Positions 12,813-64,000 of a DNA stretch of 64,000 nucleotides are shown here, in pieces; position 1 is the stretch's first letter, and each line of letters starts with the position of its first letter. Source of the stretch: Tomocerus qinae (Eukaryota; Arthropoda; Collembola; Entomobryomorpha; Tomoceridae). A program made the translations under genes and the position numbers. A model generated the notes under the pieces. That model did no database searches. It had not been told where the DNA came from and saw nothing but the letters and a program-made list of their open reading frames with translations. Where the stretch lies: assembly GCA_020055645.1 (NCBI GenBank), contig CM034546.1:69688001-69752000 (forward strand). Direction: 5' to 3'.

Positions 12813-13682
12813 TTAATTTTGAAGACACATTTTCATGCAATAGCTTTCTTTGGCTGCTTTTTCACAGTTTTCATAATTGTATTCGTAAAAATACTTGGGA
12901 TCCTTAAATCCAATAGACTTTACATGGTCGTAAATATCCTCCTTTTCAGCATTGTCAAGTTTGTTGACTTTAGTATTAACAGCCCAACTCTTTTGTCCAC
13001 TAGTCCAGCAAGTTACAGTGACGAAGTAGTCAGCTCCAACTTTGGTTACCCAAGATCTCTCTAAACAAAGTAACAAGAGCAGGCAATCAGTATTCATAAT
13101 TAGAAATTAAAATACGTAGGAAATTCGTTATAAAAATGCTGCTATACTTTACTAGCCATAGCTATAAATAATTGTATTTTAACTTTATGCCAATTTCTGT
13201 CTCAAAATCCATTTTCTAAAACCTCAGTCAAAGACTCAGTTACGATTATTATTGTTAGAATCAAATAAATTTCATTAAGAATTTGATTTGAAAATCAATG
13301 TATTTGGATTGTATGAAAATTAGTTCTTACGCCAATCCTCTTGACCTCTGACTGTCCAAATCAGAGTATTATTTTCTGAAAGTTTCATGTCGTACGCAAC
13401 ATTTGCTCCACCAGACCCTAATACTTCAACGTTCAATGGATGTTGGGATGCATCAATAGTAAATGTAGGGCAAAGATTTTTAATATCTTCATCGGATATA
13501 CTTTTTGCTTTCCGCCCTATAACGTCTTTTCCGAACATAAAGAGTTCATACTTGGATATCATGGGGTTAAACCATGTTATGCTCCTGTTTTGAAACTGAA
13601 AACAACATAAAATTTTTTAAAAATTAGCCAATAAAAACTATTTTTAAAAGTAGAATTTTTACCAATGACGAATCTACAGGTA

Positions 13683-14927
13683 CACTCTTAAAAAATAGCA
13701 TAATATTTTCATCAAACTTGAGTAATCGGTACTCAATATTTTAGTACGAAATGTGCTGACTCAACTGTTGAATAAAATTTATTCAACCGAATTGAGTAAC
13801 CTGTTTTTACAGAAGTTGACTTACTTTTACTCTATTGTTGAGGAAATTATCCTTTCCGGTTGTGTAATTTATGCTGTCATGTTGAATATAATATGATATC
13901 ATGTTGAGCATAGCATGCTATCATGTTGAGTAAAATATGCTATCATGTTGAGTAAAATATGCAATCATGTTGAGTGTAATATGCTATCATGTTCAGTAAA
14001 ATGTGCTATAAAGTTTAGTAATATCACGTTCAGTTTATTTATTGCAGCTGTTATATTTTAATACAAGCACAAAACAGTATAAAATTATTAATAATCGAAA
14101 AAAATTCAATATAAAAACAATTAGAAACACTATAAAATTTAAACAAAACAATTAAAAAACATGCAAATCAATTCAATTTTTAGTACCTAAATAATTGTGT
14201 ATTACAGTTTGAACAGTTACGGTAAGGTTGTTGAGAAAAAAACAAGTATGTTGCAGAATCTTCAAACGATTACCAATTGAAGGGACGAGAATGGCAATCA
14301 ATAGATCTTCCAACCAATTTTCTTGTATGGCAAAACAGAAATTGCAACGAAACTTCGTCATCCACGTTATTCTCTGAAAAAAACAAAGTATATTTAAAAC
14401 CGATTATAGTCAGCTGAATTTTGTTGTCATTGGTTTATTTTATCAAACTAAACACTAAACTAAAAACGAAAAAGTTTTATGTAATATAGTTTGTTTCCTT
14501 ACCTCACCATCTCCGAAAGAGGACCAAGATTTGAAGAATTAAGTATATTTTCACCTGCTGAGTATGACATTTTATAGGTTTAAAAAATTTATTGGTGACA
14601 GCAGACTGGTATTTTATTTTAAAGCGTACGAGTGTCCAGAATGCTACTTCCGCATGCACGCATGTTGTCAAAGGTAGCCGCGTGATGATTACTCTGGCGA
14701 TTGAGTATTATTTATTCAACATTTCGACATCGTTTGCTCAACAGTTGACTAGTTTAAGGACACTACACAACATTGAGGATAATTTACTCAATAGTTAAGT
14801 TTGATTTATACAACCGCAGAATGTATAACTGTATTGAGCAAAAATCAATCAACATTTGCTCAGTTTTTTATCAAAGTTGGGCAAAATAGTATTACTCAAC
14901 AAAATTGGCTGAATTTTTTTAAGAGTG
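13683..14927. mobile_element. 1.25-kb non-autonomous TA-target transposon
   Basis: The element is bounded by inverted ends CACTCTTAAAAAA and TTTTTTAAGAGTG and flanked by a TA dinucleotide on both sides (13681-13682 and 14928-14929), the target duplication of Tc1/mariner-type elements. The interior has no transposase. It has degenerate inverted sub-terminal motifs of the type TGTTGAGTAAA on the left and CTCAACA on the right, and a short 22-bp tandem array at about 13890-14010. Because the pre-insertion site is a readable coding exon, both ends and the target duplication are well fixed. Confidence 0.88.
13890..14010. repeat. 22-bp tandem repeat inside the transposon
   Basis: About six imperfect copies of a unit like ATCATGTTGAGTAAAATATG. 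The unit contains the same GTTGAGT string that recurs throughout the sub-terminal regions of the element, so it may be a transposase-binding motif array. That role is inference. Confidence 0.75.
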
Positions 14928-15029
14928 TAATGACACAAGATCTTTAAGACATGGTCCTTCAGCAGCCAAATCAACGTCCAGAGCAGTCGAAACTGCAATA
15001 AAGCCAAGCAATGGAAGAAATTTAATCAT

Positions 15030-16502
15030 TTTTGAAAATTGGAGAGCTATTTGACGAAGGAATAATGTCTTCAAAGTACGTCTCTAAACGCGAGACAAAA
15101 TTAAACAGACTCAGGACATAAAGGAATCCGCTATATAAACCAATTCAATTTATGTGTTTTTTGTCCGCTGGATAATTAATTTATGCACAAAAAATCGTGT
15201 TTCATTGCGAGAGAGAAGAAAGACCGGTTTGTATATCCAGTAATATCCAGTTGAATTACTTAACGTAGTACAGCATGGACAAACAGCATCATTTTTGTGT
15301 TTATATACAAAGTACAACGCACTATGTTCATTTCCTTGGTTCAGTTTGTGACAAAAGGGTAACCTGAGACGAAATCAATTTTTACAATATAATGATTTTA
15401 AATTTTCTTACTTTTAAATTGACGGTGGCTAAAACCTTTTAATTATACTCGTGGCATTTAGCCTTACGAATTTTTTCAATAAGTGAAATTTCAGCAAATG
15501 TTTCCTACTGCCGATTCCGAGTTTGATAAGGCCAAAATTTAATAATTTCAAATTCGCAAACTCAGCCACTTGTTATTTTCGATGAATTTGTTTCATGAAA
15601 CAATTTAAATAATTCTTCAATTTCACATCCACCTGCTGTTTAAAAATCAAACCCCCGACTTTTGAATAACAAGGATTAAAACCTCTGAAATTCTTAATGT
15701 GATATTCCCCAAAACGTGTTTTAAGGTTGATTTCTACCGTAGTTTTTACGAATTCGAGGTACTGAAATCGCATAAATATCATTTCCATAAATTATTTTAA
15801 ATATCGAGGTTTTAGGTATTTCTTTATATTTTAAAAGAAAAATAGCTTCAGTAAACTTGAAACCATTTTTAGAATTAATGTCAAAATCTAAGCAAAGAAA
15901 ATGAACATAGTGCAATGCTAAGACCATGCCCAAACCTTTTCTTATTTCAATCTTTCAATCAACAACTTTTCACATATAATGTATGGAAAATTTAAAATTG
16001 ATTTATGCTGTCATGTTGTAAACCGGCAAGTAACACGATTAAATACATTTATAAAAAACAAAGATAACAAAAATAGAAGGCAAAAATTATTCTCTTCATC
16101 GTCGCAGTACAACAATCCGTGGTAGAAGATAACACTATATTTGTGTAAAAATTAAATTACAAGGTTCATCCGGGCCGAAAATAATGTATTCATCATAGGC
16201 GTCCTATGGATTTGCAAAAACAAATCCACCTGGACATTTGCAAGATAAAATGTTAGCTACAGACTAGACTGTGATAATTTGAACAATTCAAAACTAGTTA
16301 AATCGAATGTGATGCAACAGTGTGATGTGGCTGTTATGGAAGTAGTGGTAATGGAGGCAAAAAATTACAGCTGCCTAAATATAGCCGTCTATCCAAAATA
16401 AATCAAACAAATCTTACGAATGTCAACCAACCCAACTGAAAATAAAAGTCTAGTAAACATAAATGTTAAATATAGTTGGACTACAAACAGTGCAGTAAAT
16501 AT
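15030..16502. other. Intergenic, AT-rich
   Basis: Upstream flank of the minus-strand secreted-protein gene. A TATATAG string on the minus strand near 15137 could be its TATA box. Frames at 15573-15933 look random. No repeat boundaries were recognised. Confidence 0.4.
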
Positions 16503-17012
16503 AGACCAACTTAGATCAACTTGGGGCAATAGAGATAAACTTAGATCAACTTATATTAATTTAGATCAACGCTTATACCAATTTAGACAAACCTAGACCA
16601 ATTTAAACGAACCTAGACCAATTTAAACAAACCTAGACCAATTTAAACAAACCTAGACCAATTTAGACGAACTTGGACCAATTTAGACGAACTTGGACCA
16701 ATTCAGACGAACTTGGACCAATTTAGACGAACCTAGACCAATTTAAACGAGCTTAGACCAATTTAGACGAACCTAGACCAATATAAACAAGCTTAGACCA
16801 ATTTAAACGACTTAGACCAATTTAGACGAACTTGGACCAATTTAGACGAACTTAGACCAATTTAGACGAACCTAGACCAATTTAGACGAACCTAGACCAA
16901 TTTAAACGAGCTTAGACCAATTTAGACAAAATTGGACCAATTTAGACGAACCTAGACCAATTTAGACGAACTTAGACCAATTTAGACGAACTTGGACTAA
17001 TTTAGACGAACT
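16503..17012. repeat. Minisatellite, 20-bp unit
   Basis: About 25 head-to-tail copies of a unit like TTAGACCAATTTAGACGAAC, mostly exactly 20 bp apart (one copy is 19 bp). The edge copies on the left (TTAGATCAACTT) are more diverged, as expected for an array growing by slippage or unequal exchange. Variation alternates between CTAGACC and TTGGACC and between AGACGAAC and AAACAAAC, which hints at higher-order organisation. No spacers and no cas genes are present, so it is not a CRISPR. Confidence 0.95.
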
Positions 17013-18825
17013 TTAAAAATCACAGAAAAAACATTTTAAAAATACATTTATGCTTCACAGGTACATTACATAATATATTGCATTCAAAGGTAGAGAAAAA
17101 TAGTAACTTTGCTTATTCACAGCAAACAAGGAAAAAGTATCTAAACTCTCTTCTTCGCTACGCCTAATTTATATGTTTAAAAAGCTGTAACCTTTCAAAT
17201 ATAGGTGTGCACTTTGAACTGTATAAAATAATCTGTCTATCTTCGATATTTATTGGTTGTCCGGTAAAACTATATACCATTGTGGGAAAAGGTCTTTATT
17301 CAAGAATAAATTTGGTGTCGGGGTAATTACCATAATTATTAGCATTATTTATTTACTGCAAACGCACGTAGTGAAATACAGAAATAATCTATTGAATGTA
17401 AAACTGAAATTAAAATGGATTTTTAAAAATTATAAATTCGGAAGACATCCTTTACATTGCAGATTGCAGCAATGAAGATAAAGTGTAAGATGCATAATAA
17501 TAATATACTTTTATATAAACATGGAAGAACGTTAATAATGCAAAAATATTATTACATAGTATCCGTTACATGCAATCTGCATACACGAAAACCTTGAACT
17601 GATAAGATAATTATATCTTACAGTTAGCATAATAGATAAGATATCTATTATGCTAACTGATTTTTAAAACGTTATCATCAACACCGTACTTAATCCTTAA
17701 AGCATTCAAATGACTGTAAGATAGTTTTAATTTGTTATTAGATAAATCTGATCGCTACTTATCCCTACCGCTTTACAAACGTTAAATGTGCTGCGGCTTT
17801 AGGAATGCGAATAAATTCGTACAATGGTATTCTAGACTAGTTAAAGAAGTGCAAAAATGTAGGTACTAGCAGTAGTTTTAATACCAGCACTGGAAGCAGT
17901 TGCAATACTAGGACTAGGACACTATAGGCACTGACCACGAAGAGTAGTCAAGTATTCACCGCATTAACCAGTCACTACTGTAAACACCAGAGTATGAAAA
18001 CCTCAAGGGGTTTTTGGTTTGATACCCAAAAGCCCGGTTTTTGGGTTTCATACCCTCAAACTCAAAAAGGCAGGATTTTGACTTTTCAGGCCATGGTAAA
18101 CACTCCAAAGGTTTCGTTTATTTTAAATGCGATGTAAGAATACAGAATTATACCAATAACGCTCGTTTTTGTGTAATAGAGTTGTTTACCGATAATGTCA
18201 TGCTGATATGGTGACACTGACACCTTAATTGCATTTAGACCACTGTTTTAAATTACAAACTATTATTGTGGTAGGTAATGTTATTCTTGTTTTGAAGTTA
18301 TTCATGGTTAAATACGCATTAGTATGGCTGTGGGAAGCGAATACCAAAATGTAAACAGAAAATAACGTACATTCAAATTCAATATAGAACAAACCTTTAA
18401 TAATGTTAAAATCTTTAAAAATGTGTTGACTATGTAATAGTTGCCTCCTGCATGAGACTTGGAGAAGAGTTAATACGGAATGTTCTAATGGTAAAGTAAA
18501 GCCAATGCAATTAATTCCAGTCCACCTATATGCTAATGTTTTGGATTGAGAAACCAATAATTTACTTATTTACATCTTCGTACACTCAAAATAGAACGAT
18601 GTCTTGTTTGCTGGAATGTTGGTTTCTCGTAATTACATTATGATTAATGGATGTGTTTTTGTGTTACGACTACGACTCTACGAAGTTCATTTCCCCTTAC
18701 CAGTCGTCCCATTCTCACAAACTTCCCAGTCGATGTTTGAGCAATCAGAAATTAAAGTCACTTATCATCTAAGTCCCTTCTTCTTTATCGTATTAGAATA
18801 CTTTTTACGCGTTCTACAGATAGAA
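17013..18825. other. Intergenic with a short perfect palindrome
   Basis: No credible gene. It contains the 39-bp inverted repeat listed at 17621-17659 and an odd C/G-tract stretch at 18000-18070 where CAAAAACCC-type and GGGTTT-type strings alternate. The minus-strand frame 18225-18557 has no family features. Confidence 0.4.
17621..17659. repeat. Short perfect inverted repeat
   Basis: Two 18-bp arms (CAGTTAGCATAATAGATA and its exact complement) with a 3-nt loop, a potential very stable hairpin. A second weak hairpin (AAGATAATTATATCTT) sits immediately to the left. Function unknown. Confidence 0.85.
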
Positions 18826-34200: not shown

Positions 34201-37200
34201 TGATTTCACCGATTTCAAAAGAATCCTTATCCAGTTCATATTTTTTGTCATAAGGAAAAGCGAGAGGGTCATCTACTGATTGTGTAGACTCTGAAGTTAC
34301 TGTACCTTGAAAAAAGTCGTCAATTTCTGCCTCAGATAAGTGGAGAATTAATCGCTACACAATCAAATAAACTAAAATGAATTTTAAATATTTAAATATC
34401 TGATCACGACCGAAGGCTTGAAGCCCGCATTTTCCAACCGGATTTTTGATAAATGCTGAAAGACAGATTTTATTTGATATAGGTAAATGGTTTTCCGGAT
34501 GGCTTACAAACTGCCATTTTCTTCTCTCTATATGTGAGGATTAGGAATGGCAATAGTAATAAGGAACAAACAACTTTCAGGGAAAGAATCATTTTTAACC
34601 CTTTCAGTAGTTATGTTATGAAAAGACTTCTTAAAAAGGAAAGCAAAATAACTTTTGAATCCTTGGACGCATTTTGATGAAAGTTGGTATGGAGACCCCT
34701 CATAAGTATATCTCCAGGAGTATTTTGAAAGAGCTGTAAATTCTTGGTTTTTGGATTTCAAATAGCCCGGCAAAATTTCAAAAAGTGGGTTTTTTCGAAT
34801 TTTTCATAAAGAAATTTTTTTCGAACATCTGCTCGGTTCAAATTAAAGAGATTACTAAACTACATTTTGAGGGTAAATCAAGTGTTTCAATTTCGATGAC
34901 CCCTGCTAGGTGTCAAAGGTCAAAACTTGGTATTCTGAAGAATTTCACACTCAGAGGTATCAATCGAAAGCTGACAAGGTCCCCGATGTTATTTTATGTT
35001 AGATATGGTAGCCTTTAGTATGCAAAATAGGTATATTTCTTCGGAATTTTATCGCGATTTTGTGAGTGTTAATATACAAAAATAACGTTGGTGTATAATT
35101 GCATTATATGGCCTATGAACTCTTTAAGAGGTCATTATCAGCCAAAATAATGCATGCTTTCAAAATACGTCTGGAGATGTACTTATAACGGGTCTCCATA
35201 CCAACTTTCACCAAAATCCGTCCTAGGATTCAAAAGTTATTTTGATTTCCTTTCTAGGAGCTGTTTTTCATATAACTAAATACTGACAAATGATTTTTTA
35301 ACTCTGTCCTGAAAGTTATTTCTTTCTATTGCCATTTGCCACATATAGAGAGAAGAAAATGGCAATTTGGAAGCCATCGGGAAAACCATTTACCTATATC
35401 AAATAAAATCTGCCGAAAGTGTTTGCAGGTTTTCGACATTGTTCGGTAAATTGCTTTTCTAACATTAGGTAAATTTTAAAAAAATTGTTTAAAAAAACAA
35501 AGTACCAATTGTGTATTGAAATATTGAAATGTAATAAAAGGCGTATTCACCTGCGATGCCCTTAAACGCCGTATTAAATAGAACATTATAGGCAGCGTCG
35601 CTATCAACAGGCACGCCAATATTGTCACAATCAAAAGTGTTGGATCTAAATTATATTATATCTATAATTATTTGCATTTCAGTCAATCACTTGTTATTTA
35701 GATTAGTAAAATCTAAATAATAAAATTCACCTGTTTTTTTTGTTGATAATTTAAAATACTTTGTAGTAATTCCATAGGCATTGGATGCTGTGCAAAGATA
35801 ATCTCCTTGAAATTTGTCACTGTATTCGGGAAATATTAGTTGTTTGGAATTCTTTCCGCCAGAGACGGCTAACGGAGCTTCAATTATCTTTTCCAGAAAA
35901 TGGTAATAAAAATTGTCATAAATAAAACAAACAAACTTAAGGGGAACCTATAGCGACAAAGCATACAGAGGAGCATCCCACTAACTCGATCAATTTACAT
36001 TGAGTGGAATACAATAAAATAAAATAAAATTCCATGAAATCGTTGATGACTCAAGGCAAACTCAATTTACAATGATAGCTCATTTACCAATTAAAAGTGC
36101 TCTTCTAAAACTCGAATAAAGACTCAGAGTAATCTGAGTATATGAGTTTCCATTTTTTACAAAGAGGTTTTGGTAAATGACATTTACCAAAGCCTGTATA
36201 ATATTATTACAGAGTTAAAACTTTAGTGAAACTTTTTAAACCCAACTAACCCAATTTAGAAATTTTGAATTTGCAATACGTCTCTTAAGGTATCAACTAC
36301 GCAATATGCAATTTCAGTTGGTGCCGAAAATACGGAATAATTTACGCATCGTCAGGCTGGTACAGACAATACGCAATATGCCAGGCTTAACCATGGCTTA
36401 GCCTTAGCCTATGCATATATTGAGTATTTTCGAGACTAGCCTGAAAATTCATATTGTGTATTTTCGGTACCAGACTGCTGCTGATGCATTTATAGCGTAT
36501 TTTCGGTGGCAGCTATTAGCTGCATATGCCTAATTGGTACCTTAAATGACGAATATTTGGTACATTCTAAAAAGTGGCAGGTGTATGTATAAGATTATTT
36601 CCAGTCCAATAGAACTGATCCCAAGTTTTTGTGATATCTGCTTCCAAAGTTTTCGAAAAATTGTGAGACTTTTAATTTTTGAAATTTACTTACTCGATTA
36701 TTCCGCGACCACTCAACCTTGGGAGTTGGACGACCTTCACTAAAGCAACTTAAACTTTGTCCTTTGTCTCCAAGAGATAATGCCCTCTCTGATTCAAGAG
36801 AAATTATTTTGGGTGCCATTGCATCTGTATAGAGTCATATTTTAATATTATATGGTTTGGCTTAAAAGGATAGGAAAAATTGTAAAATTATAAAACTATA
36901 TTCACCTAAAAATTGAATTTGTTTAGTTGCATTCTGCCACTCTTTTGAATCTAACAATGGAATAACACAAATAATACTTTCTATATCCTTATATCTGAAC
37001 CAGATATTAACAACGCTGAAGGGAAGACTGTAGTCGTCATTAACTATTTCTGCTTTTCTATAACTTATCATATCTGAAAAGAGAAATCCAAAAGTCTGTC
37101 ATAACATTCATATCAAATCTCAAGCGGAAAATTTTGCAACGTATTAGTATAACTCAGAAAGCATCTATTGTATATTTTACTATGGCTGTGCATTATACCT

Positions 37201-51700: not shown

Positions 51701-54137
51701 ATGTTCAAGCTACCCCGTTATATTAATTACCATTAAAAGTTTAAAAATCAGCACAATTAGGGGGCGGAGCAAGTTCCCTTGCCTGATTGGGTCACCTTCG
51801 AAACAAACTTAATATATTCTAGTCTATTCTAGTATCAAATTTTTGATCACTTATGATATCTCTATTGTTTGCGTCATTCAGGTTTGATCAATCTTTGTTG
51901 GAAAATTGTCCATATCAGCAACTTGATGGTCAATACAACGTTCGCAAAAACACTTTGGCTCCATTCCAGGAGACATTTGAATTCAATTTAATTAACCCTT
52001 TTATTATCTTTGGAAACGAAGCGTAAGATTTTTCATATCTCCGATTGTTGTTTAACAATATAAAGCATTCTTACCACGATTTATTTCATTTTAGGATGGA
52101 AGTACCACAACAAACAGGGTCATTGCATACTCCGTGTTCTTCCTTGCCATCAGAATTGACCCAAAATAACAGTATGCTGACAATGACACAAGAGGACCAG
52201 TGAGTTCAATAACTTTTATGAAATTATGACCGCATTTATCGATTTACCAATTCCTATACACATTATATTTTTACTTGTACTGCACGGTATCTGGAGAGAT
52301 AGATGGCAATATATACTTACATTACATACGCAGCATAAGTTTCCAATTAGATACCCGCAACCTTGAACAACCGTTTACTTTAACTTTTAAAATTTTCCAA
52401 ACTGAATAATAAACAATTGGACAGGCCCATTGGCAAATACAGATGAGGTATACACATGCAACTTCATGATCGGCGATCCGATCCGAACCGAGTCGCTATC
52501 ATTCAACAATTTAAGCGATCCGATCCGATCCGAGTCGCTGTAGTTCAAAAATTTAAGCGATCCGATCCGATCCGATCCATAGCTAATGTAAAATGTAATC
52601 GATCCGAACCGAACCTCCAAAATAATTTTAGCGATCCGAACCGATCCGATCCGACCCAACAAAAAAAATTTACCGATCCGAACCGAGTTGCTGTCATTCA
52701 AAATTTTGAGCGATGCGATCCGAACCGAACCAGTCCTCCAGAAAAATTCGAGCGAACCGATCCGAACTATGGTTCGGATCGGGTTCGGATCGCTAAAACA
52801 GCGAACATCGATTTGCAATGCCGAACCTCCAAAAAGCTTTTTAATTAATACATGATTTACAGCATAGAACTGTGAACTGCGACCGACTACAATCTACAAC
52901 TGCTTAATGTCATTTTGTCATAATGACTTATTTAACGTAAATGCTGCGCCACTTCTAATTTTTAATCCAACTAAATTTTTCTATTACAATTATTTACATC
53001 GATGTATTTTATTTTGCCATTTGCTATTATATTTTGATACTCTTATAATACTGGACAAATTGGGGACTAAGGGGGTGCAGTCTGTTACGAATACAGGTTG
53101 GTAGAGAGTATCTGCCTATCTTAGTTTATACAAAAGATTATCGAGTGTATCCGATCTTCTAAAAAATTGTTCAGCGAACCGATCCGATCCGAGTCGCTGG
53201 TATTCAAAAATTTCAGCGAACCGATCCGATCCGAACCAGAGCAAATACAAAATGTAATCGATCCGAACCGATCCTCCAAAACAATTTTAGCGATCCGAAC
53301 CGATCCGATCCGGCCCAACAAAAAAAATTTTACCGATCCGAACCGATCCGATCCGGCCCAACAAAAAAAATTTTACCGATCCGAACCGATCCGATCCGGC
53401 CCAACAAAAAAAATTTTACCGATCCGATCCGAGCTGCTGTCATTCTAAAATTTAAGCGATCCGATCCGAACCGAACCAGTCCTCCAGAAAAATTCGAGCG
53501 AACCGATCCGATCCGAACCGTGGTTCGGATCGGATCGCTAAAACATCGAACCTTTCCGGATCGCCGATCATGAAGTTGCATGTCTGTATGAAAGACGTAC
53601 TGTCGAGTTTTTTTTTAAATGATAATAATGACCTCTGATAACCCCAAGTTGCTCCGCCCACAGCAAATATCTTTTCATGAGTATGTAAACATAAACAATG
53701 ATTTAAATTTAGCTTCCATGGTTTTCATGTAAAAAATACTGAAAAATACAATAGTAAACGATAATATTGTTGTTATCGGAACCCGATGTAAATCTAAAAT
53801 ATGCGATGTTACATGTAATTTGCTGTGAATATCTGAAGTATAGTACTTAAGAAAGTAACCGTGGCCAAAAGGTTATTAGAGGTCATTATTATCATTTTAA
53901 AAAAACTCGACAGTACATGAAATTTAAGAATCCAATGTAGGAAATTCAAATATTTATAGTCGTACACCATGAGAAAATGGAATATGCATAAGAAAGTAAT
54001 TACAAATGAATTTTTTCTAAATCCCATTATTTTGATTAAATGTGATAGGGATACTGGATTCTCATTTCCTGATATTATTTAGGACAATTTACCATTCACC
54101 ACCAACAACCGTAACAAGAAAAGGCCTTATATCCTAA
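45727..54137 (+). CDS. STAT: STAT transcription factor
   Basis: Thirteen exons join in frame to 814 aa: 45727-45860, 46173-46347, 46912-47086, 47156-47181, 47877-48116, 48802-49043, 49175-49666, 49748-50028, 50128-50389, 51094-51210, 51882-52022, 52095-52199 and 54083-54137. Order: STAT interaction domain (FPVVIRQDFACFIEDNWAP), helical coiled-coil region, immunoglobulin-like DNA-binding domain (NSTLVIEKQQEQIL, KVFWDNLVAK), linker (FSFYSWFYGILDLIE), SH2 domain with phosphotyrosine-binding Arg572 in GTFVTRFSES, and a polar tail. Family role: latent cytoplasmic factor activated by JAK tyrosine phosphorylation, dimerising through SH2-pTyr and entering the nucleus. The usual GYVKP-type acceptor Tyr after the SH2 is not obvious; NYSDYRYF and NQYGQ are candidates. 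Exon 4 is only 26 nt. The exon 7 donor (GGTTTGAC) is weak. Confidence 0.93.
46494..46782. repeat. Foldback MITE in a STAT intron
   Basis: The arm beginning CAACAAAGGATTTCTGG and running through ATCACGCAATCCGATTT to TTTTTGAACAATGG at about 46612 returns inverted to CCTTTGTTGTCG at about 46782. Arms are about 110 bp and roughly 85-90 per cent alike by eye. It lies in the intron 46348-46911. Confidence 0.85.
47447..47626 (+). mobile_element. GTATCCAG-family MITE, copy in STAT intron 4
   Basis: Left end CAGGCGCGTATACATCCAG, right end CTGGATACGTGCCTG, near-inverted 15-bp termini. The body has GGGGGGCAAACC, an A-rich tract, AAAAATCGTCTTTTTCT and a C-rich block before the right end. It sits head to head with a second, inverted copy (47627-47740). 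Confidence 0.75.
47627..47740 (-). mobile_element. GTATCCAG-family MITE, inverted partner copy
   Basis: On the minus strand it starts CAGGTCCGTATCCAGGAATT, then ACCAAGGGGTGCACACC, an A-rich body and TCTTTTTCTGGGAATTAAGG. It abuts the preceding copy with no spacer, so the pair forms a larger inverted structure. Flanks GAACAGAT and GGACAGAA could be a degraded 8-bp duplication around the pair. Confidence 0.6.
48221..48739. repeat. TTAA-flanked foldback element in a STAT intron
   Basis: The ends are TTTAAGGCTGTCT and AGGCAGCCTTAA, each with TTAA on the outer side. Inner matches such as AACATTGATAATACATCCCC versus GGGGTTATCAATGTT support a partly self-complementary element. It contains copy A (48313-48426) of a repeat also found at 51295-51415. 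Confidence 0.6.
48313..48426 (+). repeat. Dispersed intronic repeat, copy A
   Basis: ATTTTGTGAAGGCTTAACGT, then CCTGTTCCCC, TCCCTG, TTTTCATAATTTAA and CTTGTCTCG, in the same order and spacing as copy B at 51295-51415. The two copies sit in different introns of the same STAT gene, same orientation. Confidence 0.75.
51295..51415 (+). repeat. Dispersed intronic repeat, copy B
   Basis: Reads ATTTTGTGAAGGCTTATATC, CCTGTTCCCC, TCCCTGAAC, TTTTCATAGTTTAA and ACTCGTCTCG. Matches copy A (48313-48426) over about 115 bp at roughly 75-80 per cent by eye. Located in the intron 51211-51881. Confidence 0.75.
52454..53583. mobile_element. 1.1-kb GATCCGAACC-rich element in the last STAT intron
   Basis: Bounded by perfect 26-bp inverted repeats (52454-52479 and 53558-53583, starting ACATGCAACTTCATGATC). 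The interior is two related halves (about 52480-52830 and 53160-53557) built from dozens of CGATCCGA and GATCCGAACC blocks, separated by about 300 bp of ordinary AT-rich sequence. In the right half a unit of about 63 bp with GGCCCAACAAAAAAAATTTT is repeated three times. The periodic sequence opens reading frames of up to 143 codons on both strands with repetitive SDPNRSDP-type translations; these are artefacts of the repeat. No clear target duplication. Confidence 0.85.
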
Positions 54138-54572
54138 CCAATGAGAAGGTAATTAATGCCATCAAAGCAGTAATGAGTAAGTCTATGAACCAACTACTTA
54201 CACTCTGCAAAAGATTTTTACAACATTTTAATTAACATTTAGTTTCTAGTTTCTATAAATCTGACGAAACAGGTGTAAATATCCCCATACAAATGTGTTG
54301 AAAATAAAAATGTAATCCATACTTATGCCGTGATGATAGCAATAAAACATTATCAAAATAAAACGTAAGGCAATGAAAAGCTTGGATTCTTTCAGTAAAA
54401 TGATGTTTAACAATGAACATGACATTTGGTCTTTCCAGGTTTTTTTAGAGTTACTTTCCAATGTCAAATGTTTAATCTGTTGTAAATTGCACTTAATGGT
54501 AAAAACGATAAATTATGACAATTCATTCAGCAATTACACCAAGACACATTGCAATAAGTTTTGGCTAGATTA
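54138..54572. other. STAT 3' flank
   Basis: 3' untranslated and intergenic sequence after the STAT stop codon. AATAAA strings lie near 54301 and 54343. No gene. Confidence 0.4.
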
Positions 54573-54911
54573 AGGCTGCGGGATCTCGTTGCCTCAATTG
54601 CCCCCGTTGCCACTGTTGCCTCCGTTGCCCCTAGTTTAGCCACTTAACCTATTATCTTTGCCATTTGCTTCCCGTTACTATTTCTGCCTCTTTTGTGACC
54701 TAACCTAATAAAAATAAGCATATTACTTGCTTGTTAGGTTTTAACAATAAAACAGTTTATTTTTTATTAGGTTAGGTCAAAAAAGAGGCAAAAATAGTGG
54801 CGGGAAGCAAAAGGGACAATATATATTAAAGTAATGGTTAAGTGGCTAAACTAGGGGCAACGGGGGAGGGGGCAATTGAGGCAACGAGATCCCGCTGCCT
54901 AAATGCAGCCT
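54573..54911. repeat. Foldback MITE with long terminal inverted repeats
   Basis: The left arm runs from AGGCTGCGGGATCTCGTTGC through CAATTGCCCCCGTTGCC, GCCACTTAACC, GCTTCCCG and TTTTGTGACCTAACC. All of these return inverted on the right (GGTTAGGTCAAAAAAGAGGC, CGGGAAGC, GGTTAAGTGGC, GGCAATTGAGGCAACG). The right tip carries an extra CTAAATGCAGCCT. About 340 bp, arms about 130 bp. The TTAAGGCTG-type end resembles the element at 48221-48739. Confidence 0.85.
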
Positions 54912-55499
54912 AAGTTTTAATGTTCTTTTTTATCTAAAATACATAAATACAGATATACAGATATTCATCACTGCATTTAGTGATGTACTATTTTAGTGAT
55001 GAATATCTTCATGGTACGAAGGATCCCACCATCAAATTCACTTAAAATCTGGAAACACACTAGATGTCGATGGTAATACAGATATTGGGAATTAATCTTC
55101 TTCCAATATAATCGCAAACTAGAAAAAATTTCCCTACCTATGCAATAATATCTATATATAGTAAGTAGGAAAAATTTAAATTTTACCGCGTTGATACAAG
55201 AAGTCATTATTAAGTAGCGGAGCTGCTTTATAGGAATGACTGATTTGTCTGTCTGTCCGTCCGTCCATCAGGACGATAGCTCAAGAACGGTTTATGAGAT
55301 AATCAATTCAAACTTTCTGAACGTACTCTAGAGATAAAAACTGAGGTAAATTTTGAATATGGTTAACATCGGAAACACCCCCTGTGGTGTGGTTCAATAA
55401 TTATATCTAAATGTTCAGTGAGAAGTGAAAGCACAATGAAACAATCATCAAATATATAATCGCAGACTTTAAAAAATCAACCATCTATGTATGTATGTA
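54912..55499. other. Intergenic
   Basis: AT-rich, with a CTGTCTGTCCGTCCGTCC run near 55240-55266 of the type found in many arthropod repeats. No gene recognised. Confidence 0.4.
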
Positions 55500-57606
55500 T
55501 GGTAGGGAGAATCTAGGGAACGTGCACATATTACGTAACGCAAAATTCCCTCCCCCATGCATAACGCAACGCTGACTACACACGTAAAATATGCACGTTC
55601 CTTAAAAGCAAAATACGCATGCGCATGCATGCCTACTTCCTCTTAACCCCTGAATGAGTCGTTTCAAAATATTATACATCAAAACATAATAGAAATTTAC
55701 ATAGGATGATTATTGGTGACTAGTATCATTTAAATGCCATTTATCCATTTAGAACAGCATGTAAATTACCTACCCACTAATAGAGTTTAACTAATAGCAA
55801 ATTTGAAAATTGTGTTTAAATGAAAGATAAACATTATCTCATTGGCGTCCACCTCAGAATTACATGAAAGCTTTCGACGAAGATCAAGTTTTGACACTAA
55901 AGGAGATTTATAAGGATTTAGAGTGGAACATTCAAATGAAATTTTTTAATTAATATTTTAGTACAAGGAAAAATAATTTAGAGGATTTTTGGGGTAATAC
56001 AAGATTTTTAGGAACAGTTAAATTGTAAAATGTTGGTTTGAGTGTTTAATGACAAAAACTAAGCACTAAAAATGCGTTATTGTTGTGAAAATTATTTGAG
56101 TAACGTGGTAGATATTAAATAGAACTATTTTGAACATAATCAAACAACTTATTGGCGGATGTCGGGTAATTTGAACAATTGACCGCTAATTTTTGACCCT
56201 GTGATTTTGTGTAAACGACAGGAAAATGTACATTTGTTCATTGGTAACCAGATTGTGAATATCTTAACTACAATCCCATGTTCATTTGGTATTTGGGGCA
56301 AATAGTGGCTTTTTAAAACTGTAGTCAAAGTTTACGACTTTGGTAAAGACTATAGTAAATTCTCATTTAGTGTGTATTGACATTGGCCCGAAAATAGAAT
56401 TGAATCTCATTGAGCCAGAACTATGTACACAAAGTCTAGGCCTTATAGCTCCTAAACGGAGGCTGCTACGGAAATGAGGCGACCACCATTGGAAAGAGCA
56501 ATAACCTAAAAATGAAATGGGCTATAAGAATATTTTTATTGAGCTGCATTTTGCAATTTAAAAATCAAAAAGTCGAAGGCCAAAACTCAATGTTAAATTT
56601 TCCAAATAAACATAAAATTCCTTTTAATTAATTAAATCTGTTCGTCGGTTTTCGATGATTGCTTGCAACGATTGCAACGATTTGCAAGAGGAGTTCATTA
56701 AAAATTTTTGGGAAGAAAGAAGGGAGTGAAGGATTTCCCTTGAAAAACGTCTTGAAGATTTCAGCTCGTTAAAAATGCGCATTTAAAGACGAGAAAAAGA
56801 TGTTTTCAAGGAAAATTCTTTGGAAATTCCTTGAAATTCGAAAACGAAATCATTTTCTCGTCAGTCTTAAAGGAATTTAAACGCTACTTTGAGGTTACAC
56901 TCGCTGTTGATTCTTTAAGTTGGTCCATTTCGCTCCCAAAGGTCAATTAATGGTGTTTAACTCATGAGAAGGTTAACAATTTAAGTAAAATGGCCACTAA
57001 ACTTCAAGAAGACAGTCGAAAAACAGTTTTAATGAATTCGTCTTGCAATTCGGCTTGCAAATCGTGTGGAAGGTGTTGCAAAAAATCAACGAAAGACGAC
57101 GAACAAATTTAATAGTTAAAGGGAATTTAACACTGAATTTTGGCCTTCGACTTCTTCATTTTTAATTTGTAAAACGTAGCTCAATAAAATTATTCGTATA
57201 GCCCATTTTAATTTTAGGTTATCCCTCTTTCCAATGGTGGTCATCTCATTTCCGTAGCAGCCTCCGTTCAGGAGCTATAAGGCCTAGACTTTGTGTACAT
57301 AGTTCTGGCTCACCTTGTACATAAACCGACACGGATACCGAAACATATTCAAAATTATATATGTGCATGTTCGACGTCGTGTTTATATTATAGGATGACA
57401 CGACTCATTTCGGTGGTTTAGAGGAAATGGGCTTGCGAATTTTGCTTTTATGGAATGTGCATCGTGCATATATTACGTGAGCTGTTGATGGGAGGAAGAG
57501 GTTCTCAAAACTGTTGCAGTCTTGCAGTCAGCAAGCACTTACGTTATATATGGGGAAATGGGTTTTGCGTTACATAATATATGCAGGTTTCCTAAGCTCT
57601 CCTACC
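55500..57606. mobile_element. 2.1-kb element with long imperfect inverted ends
   Basis: The left end (55500-55600) carries GGTAGGGAGAATCTAGG, GTGCACATATTACGTAACGC and CCCTCCCCCATGCATAACGC. The right end (about 57500-57606) gives on the minus strand GGTAGGAGAGCTTAGG, CTGCATATATTATGTAACGC and CCATATATAACG. No transposase frame is visible; the centre is occupied by another foldback (56411-57312). A non-autonomous DNA transposon invaded by a second element is the simplest reading. Confidence 0.7.
56411..57312. repeat. Nested 0.9-kb foldback element
   Basis: The left arm starts TGAGCCAGAACTATGTACAC and runs about 280 bp through AGTCTAGGCCTTATAGCTCC, GAGGCTGCTACGGAAATGAG and GTCGAAGGCCAAAACTCA. 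The right arm ends GTGTACATAGTTCTGGCTCA with all these blocks inverted. The loop of about 340 bp has no coding frame. Arm similarity is around 85-90 per cent by eye. Confidence 0.88.
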
Positions 57607-62270: not shown

Positions 62271-64000
62271 ATGACCAAATTATTTGTCATTTTTGTTTGC
62301 TCAACATGGCTAGTTCATTGGCTAGAATTCTGCAATGGTAAGGTTTTTAATTTTGTTCAGGTATCTACTGTCTACTCTTTTCAATAATTATATCTCATTT
62401 TTCAACCGTTTTCTAAATTCCAATTGTTTATGTCTTTACGGTTTCTAGATGCGATTTCTATTATTTTCAGGACAGAGACATAGAGTACAAGGTGGAACAG
62501 AGACTAAAAAGCACGAATTTCCATTTATTGTCAGTCTTTCTGAACATGATGGCCAACATAGATGTGGGGGAACAATTATTCATGAAGAATGGATTTTAAC
62601 AGCAGCCCATTGTTTTGACCGTTTGACATTGAATCAAGTGGCGGCAGGTGTATATAATACTGAAGTGCACGATGGAACCGAGCAAATTGTTGGCATAAAA
62701 GTCACCAAAATATATCCCGATTACAAGAAAAATGAGTAACTACCATTTTAACCAATTAAAACTAAATTATCGGTGTTAGGACATTAGGAGACATAGTTAT
62801 AGTTACTTCCAGTTTCAACAGATATATTTTATAAAACAGAAATCCACCAAAATAGAAACCTAGAAGTCTATTCGCAGTCAAGAGTGGTTAGGTTCATTTT
62901 TGGGATACTTAATAACACTTTAATTGTAATCTGAAGTAAAATTTCCCAATTTCCAACCTTAGATATACAATAAGAAGATTCAGATTACCTGTGGTTTCAT
63001 ATGGTAAGTAATATGGTGGTTTCATATGGTAAGTAATATGGTGGTTTCATATGGTAAGTAATATGGTGGTTTCATATGGTAAGTAATATGGTGGTTTCAT
63101 ATGGTAAGTAATATGGTGGTTTCATATGGTAAGTAATATGGTGGTTTCATATGGTAAGTAATATGGTGGTTTCATATGGTAAGTAATATGGTGGCTTCAT
63201 ATGGTAAGTAATATTATGGTGGCTTCATATGGTAAGTAATATGGTGGTTTCATATGGTAAGTTAATATGGTGGTTTCATAAGTCCACACTTTATACTCCT
63301 TCGCCATTGCGTTGAAATTATAGTAATTGTTGTTTAATTATAGAGTTGTTTAACATTATCAGGACATCAACAGTAATAAAAAATTATATGTAAGACTAAT
63401 ATTGATGAATTAAGCGGAAATGATTAGCGAAAGAAGACATTTCATAACATTTTACGAATTAATTAGCATTCCATAACTTCTTATCCAAGGTGACTTTTCT
63501 ATATCGACAGCCATATTTACGAGTTTGAAGTAGAGCTACTTTTTATTGCTCCCTTGATTCTTTTGTCTCAGTTTGTAAACCTTTTTTGTTTACAAATGAC
63601 AAAACTGCGTACCACTATATTGATATACAGGACGGTGGAACCAAAATAAGTTGCATTTCTAATGCATAAAGTTGATAACATTACATTGAATTATTTTAAA
63701 ATGTATATTGAAATTTTAATTGCATGACCTTGTCTAGGGTTGTACTAAAACTTATTTTTATTATACAATGTTCACGATTATTCATATTTTACTTTTATTG
63801 TAGGACTGAGCACGATATAGCTCTCGTACGTGTGTATCCACCATTTAACCTTAATGGACACGTTAAAGTTTTGCCACTTTCAGCAAAAAACGCAGTTGCT
63901 TCTGGTATGTTCACTTTATTATCATTTATATTTACATATATAGTACAGGGTTAGTCATTTAAGACAATATTATGGGATTATTACATGTTCAGGGTCATCA
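62271..64000 (+). CDS. Trypsin-like serine protease (S1), partial at window end
   Basis: Exons 62271-62337, 62471-62735 and 63804-63904 join in frame for 144 codons, after which the gene runs past the window. It has a signal peptide (MTKLFVIFVCSTWLVHW), a short activation peptide ending RHR and the mature start VQGGTETKKHEFPFIVSL. The catalytic His69 is in LTAAHC and Asp115 in EHDIALV. The Ser exon (GDSGGP) is not in the window, so activity cannot be judged. The mature N-terminus is VQGG rather than the usual IVGG. Digestive or immune-cascade roles are both possible. Confidence 0.88.
62995..63280 (+). repeat. 25-bp tandem repeat made of splice-donor-like units
   Basis: About 11 copies of a 25-bp unit like ATGGTGGTTTCATATGGTAAGTAAT, nearly identical in the first eight and slightly drifted at the right edge. 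Each copy contains GGTAAGT, matching the consensus 5' splice site, on the sense strand of the protease gene and inside its second intron (62736-63803). Confidence 0.95.

Follow-up and report, generated by a model that had tools for sequence, protein, structure and literature searches.

A non-autonomous cut-and-paste DNA transposon has very likely hit a TA dinucleotide in exon 1 of a three-exon gene, and the assembled allele of that gene is most likely null. The gene lies on the minus strand of the 64-kb window (the whole stretch of DNA that was analysed), and its first exon is split by the element. The ends of the element, the TAs beside them, the frame and splice phases of the exons and the premature stop were read directly from the assembled sequence. 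In the series of events that we favour, a transposase encoded elsewhere would have mobilized the element in trans, and the element would have inserted at a TA within the first coding exon, duplicating that TA. The host gene would encode a putatively secreted protein, and translation from its normal ATG would meet a TAA in the terminal repeat of the element after 36 codons.

The insertion site and the host gene

The transposon occupies positions 13683-14927 (1245 bp, 30% G+C; no strand assigned). Its ends, CACTCTTAAAAAA, form perfect inverted repeats of 13 nt at 14915-14927 and 13683-13695, complementary at 13 of 13 positions, as fits a terminal-inverted-repeat DNA transposon with a TA target. 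A TA adjoins each end (14928-14929 and 13681-13682), and with these two copies of the duplicated target site included the perfect inverted repeat extends to 15 nt, TACACTCTTAAAAAA, at 13681-13695 and 14915-14929. In 60 first-order Markov simulations, a perfect TA-starting inverted repeat of 15 nt with arms 100-3000 nt apart had an expected count of 0.15 per 64 kb. In the window itself, 12 TA-starting 15-mers of that kind are present, the other 11 of which fall in five other inverted-repeat clusters, so such a repeat taken alone is nothing unusual. Chance does not easily explain the exact coincidence of the repeat with a phase-restoring site between open reading frames whose splice phases match, a coincidence for which we computed no single probability.

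Exon 1 begins with the ATG at 15029, and its 5' piece (14928-15029) comprises this codon and 33 further codons, or 102 nt counting one TA. Beyond the element, its 3' piece (13663-13680) contributes 18 nt, that is, six codons, and is followed by a GT donor at 13662-13661. Removing the element together with one TA therefore yields an exon of 102 + 18 = 120 nt, a multiple of three that ends in phase 0, matching exon 2. Loss of the element with both TAs would instead leave 118 nt and a broken phase; TA duplication is thus favoured by the frame itself, in agreement with the TAs found at both ends. Intron 1 (13596-13662, 67 nt, GTAAAA...TTTTCAG) leads to exon 2 (13331-13595), which is open in phase 0 immediately behind the acceptor TTTTCAG; it ends in phase 1, as TGG C|GTAAGA. 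After intron 2 (13061-13330, 270 nt, GTAAGA...TTTAG), exon 3 (12813-13060) carries on in the matching phase and ends at a TAA. Exons 2 and 3 together encode 170 residues without a stop. These results bear out part of what the first-pass annotation had proposed: a transposon within a coding exon, a reading frame restored by removing 13683-14927 plus one TA, six codons and then a GT donor, and downstream exons that are intact in that they lack stops.

Codon usage gave moderate backing to a real gene. To train the score we used seven window stretches, each of which has a Pfam match above the cut-off (three were picked before the Pfam result), and we compared it with 3000 random frames drawn from anywhere in the window. 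The fraction of random frames scoring at or above the exon was 0.0013 for exon 1 (33 codons), 0.015 for exon 3 (83 codons, four intron bases included) and 0.039 for exon 2 (87 codons), which is the weakest link. Four of the seven scored pieces were set against this null; the six-codon piece and two other pieces, from the element, scored positive without it.

No Pfam family was returned for the host protein, whether each of its three exon pieces or the spliced fragment of exons 2 and 3 was searched, and the status of the gene thus rests on its open reading frames, splice phases and codon usage. Against the PDB, exon 2 had no match, while exon 3 and the exon 2-3 fragment had a single chance-level match each (E 0.26 and 0.79, respectively). 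Apart from self matches, tblastn of the exon pieces found nothing in the window better than E 0.14 that might be a paralogue. The N-terminus is hydrophobic and, judged by eye, resembles a signal peptide; the protein may look lipocalin-like, a likeness that we do not put forward as an assignment. A scan for bacterial-type promoters upstream of the gene, a type of scan not applicable to an animal gene, found nothing.

Coding content and internal repeats of the element

The longest stop-to-stop open reading frame lying wholly within the element measures 76 aa, and none of its seven frames of at least 50 aa (one scanned from its acceptor on) reached the Pfam cut-off. By frame length and Pfam, then, no transposase gene is present, and the element looks non-autonomous.

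The element contains a tandem array at 13836-14021 (no strand assigned), with 8.5 copies of the 22-bp unit TGTTGAGTAAAATATGCTATCA. The word TTGAGTA, which we chose by eye from this unit, or its complement is present eight times in the element, where its density in the rest of the window predicts 0.24. Two of the eight lie inside the tandem array, and both element ends carry the word. Transposases often bind to subterminal words, and the TTGAGTA words and 22-bp repeats are possible candidates for such binding sites.

A gene-like stretch runs along the minus strand from an ATG at 14570 to 14173, with a GT donor at 14507 or 14502 and a TTTTTTTCAG acceptor ending at 14374. After the acceptor, a frame of about 66-67 codons leads to a stop at 14173, and AATAAA follows on the same strand at 14043 and 14039. 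The codon usage of this frame is at background, with 0.44 of random frames scoring as high. Both PDB matches of a 41-aa piece of the frame were STE11 chains, at non-significant E values of 0.24 and 0.28. When the piece was joined to the neighbouring frame, the same chains were matched at E 0.10 and 0.11, and four unrelated entries appeared at E 3 to 3.6. The matched STE11 entries are SAM domains; the end of the frame would thus weakly resemble the last part of such a domain, which we regard as a lead. No SAM family was found in Pfam for the element's frames. Two other Pfam candidates were rejected for these frames: WIV_dom_3 (E 0.0065 and 0.037) scored 17 and 14.6 bits where the cut-off is 27, and CNP1 (E 0.14) was under threshold. 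Viral contigs scanned with the element frame yielded 15 stretches fitting a pattern, none of which was confirmed as a relative.

Compared with the rest of the window, the element gave short matches only. The best, an exact match of 18 nt with E 0.005, pairs 13867-13884 of the element with 16001-16018, some 1 kb upstream of the gene; it may be a piece of a relative or have arisen by chance.

Probable effect of the insertion on the gene product

In the assembly, the frame from the gene's ATG runs for 36 codons, counted from the Met of a 54-aa stop-to-stop frame at 14919-15083. It is closed in the terminal repeat by a TAA that, read on the gene's strand, makes up element bases 7-9, and a donor deeper in the element therefore cannot rescue the frame coming from exon 1. 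The element also contains seven AATAAA in the direction of the gene's transcription, which together with the TAA stop would be grounds for a null allele; we infer loss of function. The earlier annotation had expected only a peptide of about 36 residues from this allele. The length agrees with the frame; the word 'only' goes beyond the evidence, given the phase-0 GTs in exon 1 and an in-frame ATG near the other end of the element (13701-13699). That the allele yields this peptide and nothing else is likely, not certain.

Those two features are what an insertion tolerated by the gene would draw on, with expression that begins at a start codon or promoter in the element, or that relies on splicing from a weak GT of exon 1 over it, giving a product that lacks the signal peptide or a few residues. 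We consider this unlikely. Upstream of the element, exon 1 contains five GTs, three of them in phase 0, like exon 2. Against the donor consensus four of the five score 4/9 and one scores 2, near the 5/9 of both native donors, so that this scoring separates native from cryptic donors poorly. Both native donors read GTAA, however, and none of the exon-1 GTs does. Five GTs inside the element score higher, at 7 or 8 of 9, but they lie after the stop. As for a new start, the ATG at 13699-13701 (minus strand) is followed by an open frame that runs on into exon 1's final six codons, and exons 2 and 3 beyond are stop-free; it may therefore serve as an alternative start for a product without a signal peptide. 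Such a protein would probably not be secreted, though, and so short an open frame at the element's end may be chance.

Two further readings question the locus itself. The view that the locus is an old pseudogene or holds no gene, with a phase restored by coincidence, would accord with the empty Pfam search, with the PDB search that brought no relative beyond chance and with the codon usage of exon 2, weakly above that of random frames. Three compatible exons with two matching splice phases and no stops speak against it, as does a codon usage in exon 1 that 0.13% of random frames reach, and we hold it to be very improbable. More doubtful still is a bolder reading in which the element belongs to an undescribed TA-targeting family with a small spliced SAM-like gene besides a transposase that recognizes the TTGAGTA repeats, and in which the in-frame start in the element's end makes an intracellular protein out of a secreted one rather than abolishing it. 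Least probable of all is an assembly artefact, a wrong join with another copy of the repeat having placed the element here. Repeats commonly cause misassembly, but an exact TA on both sides and a restored phase are the mark of a real insertion and would not be expected from a wrong join. A transposon that inserted into a gene and most likely inactivated it is the reading that we retain. The earlier annotation's 'young' outruns the evidence, a recent origin of the insertion being plausible.

Relation to known transposons

The word CACTCTTAAAAA was not found in the literature searched; a terminal sequence similar to that of the element may be present in fish repeats. With TA-target transposons bearing terminal inverted repeats (IS630/Tc1/mariner-type, MITE-like), the element shares flanking TAs, short terminal inverted repeats, a length of 1.2 kb and the lack of a transposase-sized frame. 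It differs from them in its ends, its subterminal TTGAGTA words and its 22-bp tandem repeats. The TA target is described for the IS630/Tc1/mariner-type group in the available portion of PMC7325037; the portions available of that source and of PMC9179366 were otherwise no help in classifying the element.

Terminal inverted repeats and AT-rich targets are shared also with PIF/Harbinger, ISL2EU and Spy of the PHIS superfamily. As defined in the accessible text of PMC4482050, Harbinger duplicates TWA and ISL2EU duplicates AT, Spy makes no target duplication, and the ISL2EU terminal repeat usually starts with GG. Measured by these definitions, PIF/Harbinger was rejected on its 3-bp TWA duplication, the trinucleotides flanking our element being GTA and TAA, and ISL2EU was rejected on both its AT duplication and its GG start, where our element has TA and CACTC (PMC4482050, same text). 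Judged by titles and the beginnings of abstracts, literature searches for SAM-carrying transposons gave nothing fitting the element, and neither did those for TA-target elements with subterminal repeats.

A comparable event is a Harbinger insertion in melon CmEIN2, which, according to the part of PMC11161486 at hand, impairs a single gene with a phenotype traced to the insertion. Both cases involve a DNA transposon in one host gene; there the phenotype was traced, whereas here the insertion is known from sequence alone.

Other repeats and protein matches in the window

Several further repeats occur in the window. A long imperfect inverted repeat at 56411-57312 (189-nt arms, 91% complementary, 524 nt between them) is probably another DNA transposon or a foldback element, and one at 34464-35412, with arms of 90 and 111 nt (88% and 87% complementary), is probably another transposon remnant. 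At 52449-53588, arms of 32 nt (94% complementary) surround tandem arrays whose units measure 42-43 bp and are rich in CGATCCGA; this is probably a mobile element. Nested inverted repeats with arms of 46, 31 and 54 nt at 54560-54913 are MITE-like. Tandem repeats were observed at 62991-63280 (25-bp unit, 11.4 copies, 96% matches) and at 16572-17013 (20-bp unit, 22.1 copies, 88% matches). Pfam domains recognized in the window are a STAT linker, matrixin, hemopexin, trypsin and tyrosine kinase, a set that indicates an animal.

Significance of the insertion

Such insertions are well known to produce null alleles. Gene-breaking DNA transposons are well documented, and the present case is a new example of a well-known type of event, with little wider consequence as long as neither the gene nor the allele turns out to be important. 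The insertion is clean, its pre-insertion site can be read and it can be tested by PCR, which makes it of use as an allele marker; it also anchors the ends of an unclassified TA-targeting repeat.
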